64,000 bases of DNA from Candidatus Calditenuaceae archaeon (GTDB lineage Archaea; Thermoproteota; Nitrososphaeria_A; Caldarchaeales; Calditenuaceae), in assembly GCA_025058175.1 (NCBI GenBank), contig JANXED010000005.1, forward strand, positions 1 through 64,000, read 5' to 3'. Each line of letters starts with the position of its first letter. The stretch's first letter is position 1. The notes beneath the pieces are model-generated. The model was not told where the DNA came from. It worked only from the letters and a program-made list of their open reading frames with translations, and made no database searches. The position numbers and the translations under genes are program-made. Positions 794 through 60,567 of the stretch are shown here, one piece after another.

Positions 794-2536
794 ATGGTCA
801 AGGTCCACGGGCCGCTCGAGGAGGCGAGGCCTGCGCTGAGGAGGGTCTACGTCAGGGAGGTGGTGCTCGAGAACTTCATGTCGCACGAGTACAGCAGGGT
901 CAGGGTCTCCAGAGGGATCAACCTGATCACCGGACCTAACGGCGCCGGGAAGTCCTCGATATTGCTCGGGATATCGGTCGCGCTGGGCCAGAGCTACACC
1001 GAGAGGGGCGAGAGGCTCGCGGACCTCATCAGGAGGGGCAGGGACTCGGCGAGGGTATCGGTCGTGCTCGACAACTCGCCGGTCGACGGCGAGCGCCCCG
1101 TCAGGTCCATCCCGCTGGACACCATCACGATCACCCGTTACATCAAGAGGACCGGGGAGTACTGGCACTACGTCAACAACAGGTTCAGGACGAAGGCCGA
1201 GGTCGACCAGCTCCTCAGGTCGCTGGGGATCAACCCGAACAACCTCCTGATCGTGATGCACCAGAACATGATAGAGGAGTTCGCGGCCCGCGACGACTCC
1301 GAGAAGCTCAGGATGCTCGAGGACGCGGTCGGGCTATCCTCAATGAGGGAGAGGATCCTGCAGGCTCAGGAGAGGCTCTCGTCCCTAATGGGCGAGGTGA
1401 ACGCCGTGAGGAGGGCCCTCGAGGAGGCAGCGGCCGCCGTCGAGTACTGGAAGTCCGAGGTCGAGAAGCTCTCGAGGAAGAGGGAGCTCGAGTCGAGGAG
1501 GACGGCCCTTGAGCTGGAGTTCCTCTGGAGCCTCGCGAGGTCGACCGAGCTCGCTGTGAGGAGGAAGTCGGAGCTGCTCGATCAGGTCAGGTCGGAGCTC
1601 TTTGGTCTCAGGGCCGAGGAGGCCGAGGTCTCCGAGACGCTGAGGTCGAGGAGGTCGGCGCTCGCGGAGCTGCTGAGGTCGGGAGGCGGCGACGTCGAGT
1701 CGGTCCTGAGGGAAGTCGACGGGCTGATCGAACTGGCGGCGCGGAGGGGCGTGATCGGGTACAGGATCGGCGAGCTGGAGAGGGAGGGCAGGGCCCTCGA
1801 GAGGGAGATCAGGGCCCTCGAGAGGGAGCTCGACGAGAGGGTCAGGGCCGCGTCGGAGAGGGGGCCGCGGGTCGAGACCGACCGGGAGCCCTCCGAGGTC
1901 CAGGAGGAGCTGAAGTTCGTCGCGCTCCAGCTCTCCTCGTTCGGGACCGTCGTCGGCGAGGCGGAGGAGATGTACTTCATGGCGGACTCGAAGTTCAGGA
2001 GCCTCCAGATCAGGGCCGAGGAGCTGGAGCAGAACGTCAGGAGGGCGCTCGAGGAGGTCGAGCACCGGAAGAGGGTCTGGAGGGAGAAGCTCGAGGAGCT
2101 GGTCAGCGAGGTCAACCCCGTCTACGATGAGATCCTCTCCAGCGTTGGAGGCACCGGCGCGATCAGGGTCAGGGGGCTCGAGGACCCGGCGACCGCGAGG
2201 CTCGAGCTCTACGCCGGCTTCAGGGGCAACCCGGCGACGCTCCTCGACGCGAGGGCCCACAGCGGCGGCGAGAGGGTGCTGGCGACGCTGGGCTTCCTAC
2301 TCGCGGTCCAATCGAGGGTCAAGTCGCCCTTCAGGGCCGTCGACGAGTTCGACGTCCACCTCGACCCGCTGAACAGGGAGAGGATGATGACGATGCTGCT
2401 CGAGACCGCCCGGAGGCACGGCGACGTCCAGTACATCATCATCACGCCCGGCAGGGTCCCCGAGATGGAGGGCGTCAACCTGATCGTGGTCCAGAACGTC
2501 TCGGGCCGCTCCATCGTGACCGGTGGTCAGGGATGA
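794..2536 (+). CDS. Short SMC6-like ATPase
   Basis: 580 residues, about half the length of a true SMC. Visible in order: Walker A GPNGAGKSS (47-55), Q-loop HQN near 155, coiled-coil segments rich in Glu/Arg/Leu from about 180 to 430, ABC signature SGGER (about 490) and Walker B ending VDEFDVHLD (about 517). The Walker B tail DEFDVxxD and the following helix with IIITPG resemble eukaryotic SMC6 rather than Rad50 or bacterial SMC. I see no Rad50 CxxC zinc hook and no obvious hinge domain, so the arms are short. Archaeal SMC5/6-related proteins are known; the extreme shortness is notable. ATG start with TTAAATA (759-765) about 32 nt upstream. The next gene overlaps by ATGA. Role inferred: DNA tethering or repair. 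Confidence 0.8.
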   Translation: MVKVHGPLEEARPALRRVYVREVVLENFMSHEYSRVRVSRGINLITGPNGAGKSSILLGISVALGQSYTERGERLADLIRRGRDSARVSVVLDNSPVDGERPVRSIPLDTITITRYIKRTGEYWHYVNNRFRTKAEVDQLLRSLGINPNNLLIVMHQNMIEEFAARDDSEKLRMLEDAVGLSSMRERILQAQERLSSLMGEVNAVRRALEEAAAAVEYWKSEVEKLSRKRELESRRTALELEFLWSLARSTELAVRRKSELLDQVRSELFGLRAEEAEVSETLRSRRSALAELLRSGGGDVESVLREVDGLIELAARRGVIGYRIGELEREGRALEREIRALERELDERVRAASERGPRVETDREPSEVQEELKFVALQLSSFGTVVGEAEEMYFMADSKFRSLQIRAEELEQNVRRALEEVEHRKRVWREKLEELVSEVNPVYDEILSSVGGTGAIRVRGLEDPATARLELYAGFRGNPATLLDARAHSGGERVLATLGFLLAVQSRVKSPFRAVDEFDVHLDPLNRERMMTMLLETARRHGDVQYIIITPGRVPEMEGVNLIVVQNVSGRSIVTGGQG

Positions 2537-3279
2537 GGCCGGTGGAGGTAAGGGTGGAGGAGCTGAGGAGGATGGCGGCGGCCCTCGAGTCGGTCCTCAG
2601 CATGAAGGTCGAGCCCTTCACCGTCAACGTCGCCTCGCTCCTCAGGAGGCTCAGGTCGATCGTCGAGGAGAGCAGGGACCTCGAGACGGTCGTCCTCGAC
2701 GCCGAGGTCCTCTACAGGGTCTCGGTGGTCCTGGGGCTCCAGCAGAGGTACATCCTCCAGAGCGCCTCCTCACTCCTGATCGACTCCCAGCTGGTCGTCG
2801 CGAAGGTCCTCAGGTCCGAGCCCCACGAGCTCGCCGCGGCCCTCGTCTCGGCCTGGCGACCGATCGCGAGGGTCGAGCACGTCACCACACCCCTTCTCGT
2901 CAGGGCTTACGAACACTTCCTCTCGCTCCCGGGGAAGCCGGTGAGGATCGAGGCCGGGCTATCCGCCGAGGAGAGGGCTCCGGGATGGGAGGCCTACGAG
3001 GCCGCGTTCGAGGAGGAGCTGAGGTCGCTGAAGTCGGAGCTCGAGTCCGAGGGAGGCTGGGTCGACTACTGGGAGTTCGTCTCGAGGGAGGGCGAACGCC
3101 GGAGGGCCAGCAGGGCGTATCTCCTGAGCTTCCTCATCACCCGAGGCGAGATTGAGGTCCAGTACGACCCGCTCAGGGAGGAGATCAGGGTAATGGCCGC
3201 GACCGCCCCACAGCAGAGGAGGGAGGGCGACGTCCTCTCCCTGGTGATATCGCTGGGCCGGATGGGGCGGGGCGGCTGA
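2533..3279 (+). CDS. Kleisin-like (ScpA-like) partner of the SMC6-like ATPase, tentative
   Basis: 248 residues, overlapping the SMC-like gene by ATGA, so the two are probably translated together. The N-terminal part (about 15-80) alternates amphipathic helices in the way ScpA/kleisin N-domains do: VEPFTVNVASLLRRL, then LDAEVLYRVSVVLGL. The C-terminal part (about 180-230) ends in a compact helix-helix-strand unit, YLLSFLITRGEIEV followed by EIRVM, like the winged helix of a kleisin that docks on an SMC head. The match is by pattern only and there is no catalytic motif. Alternative: an unrelated helical accessory protein specific to this SMC. The gene position is the strongest argument. Confidence 0.5.
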   Translation: MRPVEVRVEELRRMAAALESVLSMKVEPFTVNVASLLRRLRSIVEESRDLETVVLDAEVLYRVSVVLGLQQRYILQSASSLLIDSQLVVAKVLRSEPHELAAALVSAWRPIARVEHVTTPLLVRAYEHFLSLPGKPVRIEAGLSAEERAPGWEAYEAAFEEELRSLKSELESEGGWVDYWEFVSREGERRRASRAYLLSFLITRGEIEVQYDPLREEIRVMAATAPQQRREGDVLSLVISLGRMGRGG

Positions 3280-3421: not shown

Positions 3422-3703
3422 ATGGGCAGGACCGTCCCGACGTACAGGCAGAGGCTCCTGGCCGAGCTCGAGAGGTGGAAGTGCTTCAGGTCCGCGCTCC
3501 TGAGGGACGAGAGGTATGACTTCGACAGGCTGGTGGACCAGGCCTTCTCCTACGTCCACGCGGGCTCGATGTGCCCCGAGAGGGAGGCGTTCGAGGTGCT
3601 GGTGATATCGCTGCTCCTCGCCCACGAGTCGAGGCTCAGGTCGCTCGAGGGGGCGGCCGGCGTGGAGGCTCCGAGGGTCGGCGCGAAGGGGCTTGATCGG
3701 TAG
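3422..3703 (+). CDS. Small conserved archaeal protein upstream of PolB2-like gene
   Basis: 93 residues starting MGRTVPTYRQRL, an N-terminal signature I associate with a family of small archaeal proteins of unknown function. The remainder is helical and charged, with two Cys that are not arranged as a zinc site. Its 3' end overlaps the DNA polymerase gene by 11 nt, so the two are probably one transcript. A small protein sits beside dpo2 in some Sulfolobales, by recollection, so a role as polymerase partner is a reasonable inference. Start is ATG. A 142-nt gap separates it from the SMC/kleisin pair. Confidence 0.7.
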   Translation: MGRTVPTYRQRLLAELERWKCFRSALLRDERYDFDRLVDQAFSYVHAGSMCPEREAFEVLVISLLLAHESRLRSLEGAAGVEAPRVGAKGLDR

Positions 3704-5876
3704 GCTGCTGGACCTGAACTTCACGCCCGACGGCGAGGCGGTCGAGCTCTGGCTCAGGCTCGGCGAGTCCGAGGTCGAGAGGGTCCGAGTCGAGTGGATG
3801 CCCTCGGTCTGCGCGGTAGGGCCCGGAGGCGCGCTCGAGGAGCTCGCGAGGGCGTTCTGTGAGCGCTCGGAGCTGGTGACGGCCTCCGAGGAGCCCGGGA
3901 GGGATCCCAGGCCGGCGTTGAGGATCAGGGCGAAGGCCTGGGAGAGGAGAGAGGTCGCGAGGCTTATCGAGTCGTCCTTCGGAAGGTCAGGAGTCAGGGT
4001 CTACGACGTCGACGTCCCGGCGCTCCAGCAGTTCCTCTATGAGCACGGGCTCTTCCCGACCGCGCTGGTCGAGGTCTCCGGAGACCGGCTGAGGACCATC
4101 GACTCGAGGGAGGACGCGGACTACGACGTCTCGTGGGTCAGGGTCGCGGAGCTCGAAGTCTCGACGCGGCGAGGCTCAGCTTACCCGGGCCTCGACGAGC
4201 CCCTGGGTTCCGTGAGGCTGACCTCGAGGGAGGGGGAGGTGGAGCTGGACGGCGACGAGCCCGGCGTCCTCGAGGAGCTGATGAGGGCGGTGGAGCCCTT
4301 CGACGTGCTGTTGGTCAAAGGCGGCGACTCTTTCGCGATGCACTACCTCCGCCACAGGGCGTCGGTGAACGGCGTCGAGCTCGAGCTGGGGAGGGAGAGG
4401 TCTCCGAGACCGAGGAGGGGCTCGAGGGCCTACTGGAGCTACGGCAGGGTCTACAGGAGGCACAGCGCCTTCAGGTTGAGGGGAAGGGTCCACGTCGACC
4501 CTCTCAACTCCTTCGTCTACTCCCACACGGGGCTCTTCGGCCTCCTCGAGGTCGCGAGGACCTGCGTAGTCCCGCTCCACGACGCCGCAAGGTACACGAT
4601 CGGGCAGTGCATGACCTCCCTCCAGTTCGAGGTCGCGAGCAGGAGGAAAGCGCTGGTGCCCTGGAGGGCCGGGAGACCGCTCTACTTCACCCTCGGGGAG
4701 CTCAGCGTGATGGACAGGGGAGGACTCACGCTTGACCACAGACCCGGAGTCTACTGGGGAGTCGCGGAGGTGGACTTCCAGAGCATGTACCCGATGATCA
4801 TCCTGACGAGGAACGTCAGCGCGGAGACCGTGAACTGCGGGTGCTGCGGCGGCCGCGGGACGCCGATCCCGGAGATAGGAGGCCACACCTGCTCGAGGAG
4901 GGTAGGGCTGGTCCCGGAGGCGATATCGCTCCCTCTCAGGAAGAGGCTCGCGTACAAGTCGATGCTTAGGGAGGGAAAGGGCGACCCGGAGGTCCTCAGG
5001 GCGAGGTCGGACGCGCTGAAGTGGGTACTCGTCTCCTCCTTCGGGTATCTGGGCTTCAGGAAGGCGAAGTTCGGGTCTAGGCTCGCCCACATGGCCGTCT
5101 GCGCCCACGCCAGGGACGCGCTGCTGAGGGCGGTAAGGGTCGCGGAGCGAATGGGCTTCGAGGTCGTCCACGGGATCGTCGACTCGCTCTGGGTCAGGAG
5201 GGAGGGTGCAGCCGAGGAGGATTACTCGGAGCTGGTGAGGGCGATCGAAGAGGAGACCGGCCTGCCCGCGGCCCTCGAGGGGACCTACAGGTGGATCGCG
5301 TTCCTCCCCTCGAAGTCCTCCCCCCTCAGGCCCGTGAACGGGAGGTACTTCGGCTTCAGGACCGACGGCAGGGCCAAGTTCAGGGGGATTGAGGCGAGGA
5401 GGTCGGACACGCCGCCGCTGGTCGCGAGGATGCAGCTGGAGATGCTCGAAGTCCTCTCGAGGGTCGAAGCCCCGCAGGACCTGCCTGGAGCGGTGGAGGA
5501 GTGCTTCGGTGTGCTGAGGAGGTACGAGAGGGACCTGGTGCTGGGGAGGGTCGGAGTGGAGGACTTGGTGGTGACGGTGAGGCTCTCGAGGGACCCCTTC
5601 GGCTACTTCAACAGGGTCAGGCAGGCGGTCGCCGCGAGGAGGCTCCTGAGGATGGGCGTGGAGGTGGGGGCCGGGAGCGTCGTCAGCTACGTCGCCCTCG
5701 GGGACAGCTCCGCGCCCTACCCATCGGAGAAGCCCATAAGTCCGGCCTGTTGCTCGACGGAGTTCTACCTGAACGCGCTCAGAAGGGCCGCGGAGACGAT
5801 CCTCTCGCCGCTGGTCCGTGCGGTCGCTGGGGCACGCGGCGGACCAGTCCCCGTCAGGGCCTCAGCAACACCTTGA
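3693..5876 (+). CDS. Family B DNA polymerase with degenerate active sites (PolB2/Dpo2-like)
   Basis: 727 residues. Motif A is clear (VDFQSMYPMIIL, near residue 361). Motif B is altered (LKWVLVSSFGYLGF, near 442; the usual Asn before the Tyr-Gly is Ser). Motif C reads HGIVDSLWV (near 496), so the first Asp of the standard DTDS is missing while the second remains. The exonuclease I motif is also altered (ELEVST in place of DIE). Disrupted exonuclease and polymerase motifs are the hallmark of archaeal PolB2, reported to act in damage bypass rather than bulk replication. Start is TTG, overlapping the upstream small gene. The 3' end overlaps the convergent dehydrogenase by 23 nt. Confidence 0.85.
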   Translation: MIGRLLDLNFTPDGEAVELWLRLGESEVERVRVEWMPSVCAVGPGGALEELARAFCERSELVTASEEPGRDPRPALRIRAKAWERREVARLIESSFGRSGVRVYDVDVPALQQFLYEHGLFPTALVEVSGDRLRTIDSREDADYDVSWVRVAELEVSTRRGSAYPGLDEPLGSVRLTSREGEVELDGDEPGVLEELMRAVEPFDVLLVKGGDSFAMHYLRHRASVNGVELELGRERSPRPRRGSRAYWSYGRVYRRHSAFRLRGRVHVDPLNSFVYSHTGLFGLLEVARTCVVPLHDAARYTIGQCMTSLQFEVASRRKALVPWRAGRPLYFTLGELSVMDRGGLTLDHRPGVYWGVAEVDFQSMYPMIILTRNVSAETVNCGCCGGRGTPIPEIGGHTCSRRVGLVPEAISLPLRKRLAYKSMLREGKGDPEVLRARSDALKWVLVSSFGYLGFRKAKFGSRLAHMAVCAHARDALLRAVRVAERMGFEVVHGIVDSLWVRREGAAEEDYSELVRAIEEETGLPAALEGTYRWIAFLPSKSSPLRPVNGRYFGFRTDGRAKFRGIEARRSDTPPLVARMQLEMLEVLSRVEAPQDLPGAVEECFGVLRRYERDLVLGRVGVEDLVVTVRLSRDPFGYFNRVRQAVAARRLLRMGVEVGAGSVVSYVALGDSSAPYPSEKPISPACCSTEFYLNALRRAAETILSPLVRAVAGARGGPVPVRASATP

Positions 5877-60451: not shown

Positions 60452-60567
60452 TGCGGGGGGTGGGATTCGAACCCACGAACCCCTTCCGTCTGGCCGAGCC
60501 TACGGGGAGCGGCTGCCCCATCGCCGGATCTTGAGGCCGCCGCCGTTGACCGCTTGGCTACCCCCGC
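60452..60567 (-). tRNA. tRNA-Leu(CAA) with two introns
   Basis: 116 nt. Acceptor GCGGGGG/CCCCCGC, T-arm GTGGG TTCGAAT CCCAC, anticodon loop CTCAAGA (anticodon CAA) on the stem GCGGC/GCCGC. Intron 1 is 15 nt (complement 60515-60529) at the standard position 37/38: bulge AG|A, central helix CTCA/TGGG, bulge GC|A. Intron 2 is 16 nt (complement 60484-60499) in the variable arm: central helix CCGT/ACGG, bulges AG|G and AA|G. Removing both leaves 85 nt with a normal long Leu variable arm (CCCC GTAG GGGG). The 3' CCA is not encoded. Confidence 0.88.

Follow-up and report, generated by a model that had tools for sequence, protein, structure and literature searches.

Two overlapping genes near the start of the window (the 64,000-nucleotide stretch of archaeal DNA analyzed here, which forms the start of contig C92 in a genome that is 57% complete) probably encode the SMC ATPase and the kleisin of a hinge-less Smc5/6-type complex, in which a KITE protein resembling Nse1 and Nse3 would be the third subunit and DNA would be held in a clamp formed by the SMC heads and the kleisin. 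The two open reading frames, 794–2536 and 2533–3279, lie on the plus strand and overlap through the sequence ATGA, as the original prediction had described. The first encodes a 580-amino acid protein in which the Pfam model SMC_N is detected with an E value of 2e-32. It had been recognized from its sequence as an SMC-type ATPase of roughly half the usual length, and its canonical counterpart in this genome is indeed 1150 amino acids long. Orthologs of the short SMC, about 555–705 amino acids in length, occur as a single copy across the order and the phylum, and a phylum-wide search found one Smc5/6-type SMC gene per genome. The pairing of the SMC and kleisin genes is not a chance arrangement, because both are kept together across archaeal families.

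The motifs expected of an SMC ATPase are intact and are located on the plus strand within the Walker A region (GPNGAGKSS, residues 46–55; 929–958), the ABC signature (HSGGER, residues 489–494; 2258–2275), and Walker B (FRAVDE, residues 513–518; 2330–2347). Alignment of 33 family members revealed that GPNGAGKSS, SGGER, and FRAVDEFD are invariant or nearly so. Walker B leads into FDVHLDPLNRE, a tail that had been noted as similar to that of Smc6; consistent with this observation, the best matches of the protein in the PDB are yeast Smc5 (E 3.8e-36) followed by Smc6. The profile built from the 33 members scores 195–225 bits against Smc5/6 and at most 169 bits against canonical SMCs, Smc1–4, and Rad50. 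The preference is reversed in a control, as the 44 matches of the window genome’s own canonical SMC at 1e-15 include no Smc5 or Smc6 chain.

Phylogenetic analysis of head domains leads to the same placement. In a tree of 48 sequences, in which the eukaryotic rows are human SMC6 and yeast Smc5 only, both on long branches, the short SMCs form one clade that joins these two eukaryotic proteins with support of 100/96. Canonical SMCs stand apart (100/98), as do Rad50-like rows (100/100), and a topology that forces Smc5/6 to group with canonical SMCs is rejected (AU p 0.0017). Because of the long eukaryotic branches and the absence of eukaryotic Smc1–4 from the tree, the exact sister group indicated by these sequences is less certain than the placement of the family on the Smc5/6 side. 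All of the NCBIfam equivalog cut-offs lie far above the scores of the short SMC, which reaches 175 bits with the canonical model SMC_prok (cut-off 729), without a match in the hinge, and 32 bits with RecN (cut-off 408). Together, the NCBIfam scores and the tree argue strongly against membership of the short SMC in Rad50, ASRP, or RecN, so that the Rad50 placement that would have counted against the original prediction did not materialize; in profile searches, its nearest relatives of solved structure are Smc5 and Smc6.

The 248-amino acid product of the second gene (2533–3279, its start overlapping the stop of the SMC gene) is a kleisin of the Nse4-like type, as judged from family profiles and from its predicted fold. 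The window’s protein alone gives no useful match in Pfam, NCBIfam, or the PDB, and it is the family profile that yields matches. Pfam Nse4_C matches 19 of 33 family members (best E 3.5e-7), the family profile retrieves yeast Nse4 (1e-4) and human EID3/NSE4 (3e-4) from the PDB, and hhalign aligns the family with the canonical ScpA of relatives over 188 columns (E 6.5e-7). The AF2 model of the protein, the middle and tail of which are of low confidence, contains an N-terminal helical domain (residues 3–81; 2539–2775, plus strand) with a DPF-type motif (EPF here) and a weak match to the ScpA N-domain in 6ivh, followed by a C-terminal winged helix (residues 152–222; 2986–3198, plus strand). Foldseek identified Nse4 of the yeast Smc5/6 holo-complex (7qcd_F) as the closest fold, with an E value of 1.4e-3; the next matches are the C-domains of ScpA and Scc1 bound to SMC heads (4i99, 5h66, and 1w1w). 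AF2, Foldseek, and hhalign thus agree on the plan of the kleisin superfamily, an N-terminal helical domain and a C-terminal winged helix, which bears out the kleisin-like patterns that the original prediction had read at the two ends of the protein and the winged helix expected of it. The resemblance to Nse4-type (delta) kleisins lies in the C-domain and is remote, as is that of the third gene to MAGE and Nse1 (E 1e-7 to 1e-3); the kleisin family matches both Nse4 and ScpA.

A gene of about 190 codons stands directly downstream of the kleisin gene in most relatives, and nearly all loci have a gene for 180–210 amino acids after the kleisin gene. In the window genome, it is located on contig C81 (match 68708–69235), within an open reading frame of 208 amino acids. 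Eukaryotic Smc5/6 has two KITE subunits, MAGE/Nse3 and Nse1. When the third-gene family was compared with 24,736 Pfam families, MAGE/Nse3 was the most frequently matched (8 of 27 members; best E 3.6e-4) and Nse1 the second (6 of 27; best 1.2e-4), all of these matches being weak and below curated cut-offs. The same two families head the list for the copy in the window genome (MAGE, 2.7e-4; Nse1, 4.7e-4), and a search of the PDB with the family profile gave only a weak match to MAGE (E 0.08). A blind search with a profile of the third gene of Asgard operons (see below) found matches in nine genomes of the window’s order, at or near the kleisin gene and mostly directly downstream of it. As a control, the ScpB proteins of the same genomes match ScpB and neither MAGE/Nse3 nor Nse1. 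On these sequence similarities, it is likely rather than proven that the third gene encodes an Nse1/Nse3-like KITE subunit. Two other candidates were rejected. ScpB was ruled out as the identity of the third gene (hhalign gives a probability of 0.3% at E 0.17), a separate ScpB being present beside the canonical SMC, and the small open reading frame downstream of the kleisin gene (ORF3, 3422–3703) is not a shrunken KITE, since it shows no similarity in any search and the KITE-like gene of this genome lies on C81.

Among 151 genomes of the phylum, which are not independent samples, 71 contain the SMC, which is accompanied by the kleisin in 70 and by the third gene in 69 of them; none of the three is found in the other 80. 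The exceptions are G074, in which even the SMC is matched incompletely, and G154, in which the kleisin gene lies at a contig edge. Even two members of a single genus differ, G067 having all three genes and G081, a 100% complete genome, none. The trio is co-distributed even when it is unlinked, as in G057; the KITE-like gene is also unlinked in the window genome and in G002. Of the 32 loci with a KITE-like gene, 30 have SMC, kleisin, and KITE in this order on one strand, and these include contigs of Bathyarchaeota, Thermofilales, Methanodesulfokora, and Hadesarchaea. Within the window’s order, the trio is nearly universal and is inherited by lineage rather than scattered. The stripped-down SMC5/6 complex of the original prediction therefore stands insofar as an Smc5/6-type ATPase is accompanied by a kleisin across relatives; it falls short in comprising these two proteins alone, as a KITE-like protein is a constant third partner.

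The AF2 model of the 580-amino acid SMC (mean pLDDT 87.5) consists of a head, an arm of approximately 114 residues, and a five-residue turn. The N-terminal arm helix (residues 182–295; 1337–1678), along which conservation drops outward to 0.36, is followed at the arm tip by the turn (residues 296–300; 1679–1693), which occupies the position of the hinge in other SMCs. The chain then returns through C-terminal arm helices that contain a joint-like break (residues 301–356, 366–382, and 390–450; 1694–2143); all of these elements are on the plus strand. The closest fold is 5xei, an engineered construct of P. yayanosii Smc in which the head is combined with the coiled coil and the joint. Pfam SMC_hinge has no match in the window SMC or in three longer relatives that were checked individually (L046, L049, and L070), and it is not among the Pfam families that match at least three of the 33 members in a joint scan. 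The same model detects the hinge of Asgard relatives (2.8e-13) and, weakly, that of the canonical SMC (0.0039). A CxxC zinc hook was likewise not found in the window SMC or in four relatives that were scanned (L103–L106), so that the original reading of a protein with neither zinc hook nor clear hinge holds. The archaeal SMC, as modeled, is one that keeps the ATPase head, neck, and joint and ends in a short hairpin arm without a hinge.

A hairpin of this type could dimerize at its tip in the manner of RecN or Rad50 and generate a small closed ring, which may step along DNA like SMC motors. The arm is confidently modeled as an antiparallel hairpin, and longer tips occur in Bathyarchaeota and others, up to approximately 315 residues between fixed anchors. 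RecN, a short SMC-like protein that is also a half-length ATPase of similar size, provides a precedent, although it is not known to have a kleisin or a KITE. The properties of the tip itself argue against this arrangement. Conservation is approximately 0.7 in the head and falls to 0.25 at the tip, the lowest value in the arm, the distal arm between the fixed anchors varies from 193 to 315 residues across the family, and the sequences scanned contain neither a hook nor a hinge motif. Dimerization through the tips is thus unlikely.

Canonical SMC-ScpA-ScpB is encoded as well in the window genome and in most genomes of its order, and the hinge-less complex is therefore a second, separate SMC complex. 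The canonical operon of the window genome is located at 70200–77000 of contig C70 (G000:C70:70200-77000; L083); in most relatives, ScpA has diverged too far to be recognized by the corresponding Pfam model. The two complexes have the kleisin fold and, probably, the SMC-kleisin-KITE plan in common, whereas the canonical complex is encoded in its own operon in the same genome, contains an SMC with a hinge, and has ScpB in place of the KITE-like protein described here. ScpB was not found in two genomes of family f8 (G047 and G056), one of which, G056, also lacks a match for canonical SMC; both contain the trio, which may be their only SMC-kleisin complex.

The coexistence with canonical SMC in most of these genomes could also mean that the short SMC acts as a regulator by pairing with its canonical counterpart. 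A precedent is C. elegans SMCL-1, a short SMC-like regulator of condensin that, like the archaeal protein, departs naturally from the usual SMC plan (PMC5373644). SMCL-1 itself is not known to be encoded in a conserved operon together with a kleisin and a KITE. The archaeal SMC, in contrast, has a strictly co-occurring kleisin and KITE-like protein of its own, its ATPase motifs are intact, and it is present in G056, in which canonical SMC and ScpB were not detected; we consider a regulatory role very improbable. Even less probable is a defense system of the Wadjet or Lamassu type directed against plasmids or viruses. The ATPase part gives weak PADLOC matches to LmuB and JetC, and human Smc5/6 acts in antiviral immunity (PMC10586767), but the genes occur once per genome, are found almost throughout the order, and follow the lineage rather than being scattered, no nuclease partner is seen, and neither the kleisin nor ORF3 matches a PADLOC model. 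Finally, a Rad50- or ASRP-type repair ATPase akin to coalescin/Sph, with an unrelated helical neighbor, is scarcely credible, for although the short SMC resembles ASRPs in total length and matches the NCBIfam ASRP model with an E value of 6.6e-14, its score of 51 bits lies far below the required 300, SMC models give higher scores, the zinc hook was not found in the sequences scanned, and Rad50-like rows split off in the tree.

We return to the hinge-less Smc5/6-type complex as the preferred explanation. It resembles eukaryotic Smc5/6 in the sequence of the SMC head, in its position in the tree, and in the Nse4-type C-domain of the kleisin. It differs in having one SMC gene rather than an Smc5-Smc6 heterodimer, an arm of approximately 114 residues rather than a hinge and arms of about 50 nm, and one kleisin-like and one KITE-like gene, a simpler set than Nse1, Nse3, and Nse4; the single KITE-like gene weakly matches both of the KITE families that are separate proteins in eukaryotes. 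Yeast Smc5/6 suggests how these parts may work. In that complex, DNA lies between ATP-engaged heads and necks below and Nse1-3-4 above, where Nse3 secures it (PMC9191643). The archaeal complex retains the parts of this clamp without the rest, and we therefore propose, by analogy, that it is probably an ATP-gated DNA clamp, a conjecture that the original prediction had made in the form of a head-only clamp. In the assembly and stoichiometry that we infer, binding of ATP would cause engagement of two SMC heads, and the kleisin would bridge them, its N-domain on one neck and its C-terminal winged helix on the other head. The KITE would then close the top, so that DNA becomes clamped inside the head-kleisin compartment. 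Hydrolysis of ATP would open the heads and release the DNA; with no hinge, the kleisin alone would hold the partners together between cycles. The kinship with Smc5/6 and the frequent presence of an Lhr-type helicase gene nearby suggest a role in genome maintenance.

Current SMC models, namely DNA entrapment, segment capture, and loop extrusion, presuppose long arms joined by a hinge, and a conserved natural complex that has head, joint, kleisin, and a KITE-like protein without the hinge offers a direct test of those models. The complex also bears on the origin of eukaryotic Smc5/6, as Nse4-like and KITE-like partners accompany the archaeal Smc5/6-type SMC. Archaeal “SMC5/6-related” SMCs that group with Smc5/6 were reported by Yoshinaga and Inagaki (2021), as cited in PMC9389158, and as far as that citation describes it, this clade very probably includes the hinge-less family. 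Kleisin or KITE partners and loss of the hinge are absent from the accessible descriptions of that work. Archaeal canonical SMC complexes have been described as usually lacking a KITE, and smc, scpA, and scpB were undetected in Crenarchaeota (PMC7055376). Archaeal Nse4-like or Nse1/3-like partners and a hinge-less SMC-kleisin complex were not found in the literature that we searched, a set that did not include the 2021 paper and in which subscription papers and preprints were mostly not represented.

Operons in Asgard archaea (L120–L129) encode an AAA+ ATPase, an Smc5/6-like SMC, an Nse4-like kleisin, a KITE-like protein, and sometimes a zinc ribbon; their kleisin occurs in 17 of the 79 Asgard-phylum genomes sampled, and the third gene, of approximately 170 codons, follows SMC and kleisin. 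Their kleisin (hhalign 4e-14) and third gene (8e-11) are related to those of the hinge-less complex and the gene order is identical, whereas the Asgard SMC, 832–840 or about 1125 amino acids in length, has a hinge where tested, and the AAA+ ATPase gene lies upstream. These operons are candidates for closer relatives of eukaryotic Smc5/6. A broader scenario, to which we give somewhat less than even credence, is that a complete Smc5/6-type SMC-kleisin-KITE complex is ancient in archaea and ancestral to eukaryotic Smc5/6, that it is hinge-free in TACK archaea, and that the clamp of heads, kleisin, and KITE is the irreducible core of SMC complexes.

Several neighbors of the trio were observed. The Lhr-type helicase, of approximately 950 amino acids, is encoded near 16 of 37 loci (L032, L033–L035, L037, L038, L041, L043, L059, L061, L066, L072, and others), in many of them convergently and just downstream of the KITE-like gene. 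A protein of approximately 230 amino acids without a Pfam family is often encoded divergently upstream of the SMC gene (L035:15316-15999, L043:6200-6916, and 11 more loci). In the window, a PolB2-like B-family polymerase gene with a TTG start (3693–5876) reaches 341 bits with its nearest NCBIfam model, the cut-off of which is 516. The original prediction had connected the complex with damage tolerance through this adjoining gene; we rejected the link, as the PolB2-like neighbor occurs in the window’s genus only, and a type B polymerase gene in the vicinity of a single Bathyarchaeota locus represents a different arrangement. ORF3, 93 amino acids in length and located between the kleisin and PolB2-like genes, is likewise confined to the window’s genus and has no convincing family match. 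At the far end of the window, Rfam identified a 116-nucleotide tRNA on the minus strand (60452–60567) that ARAGORN missed and that possibly contains an intron.
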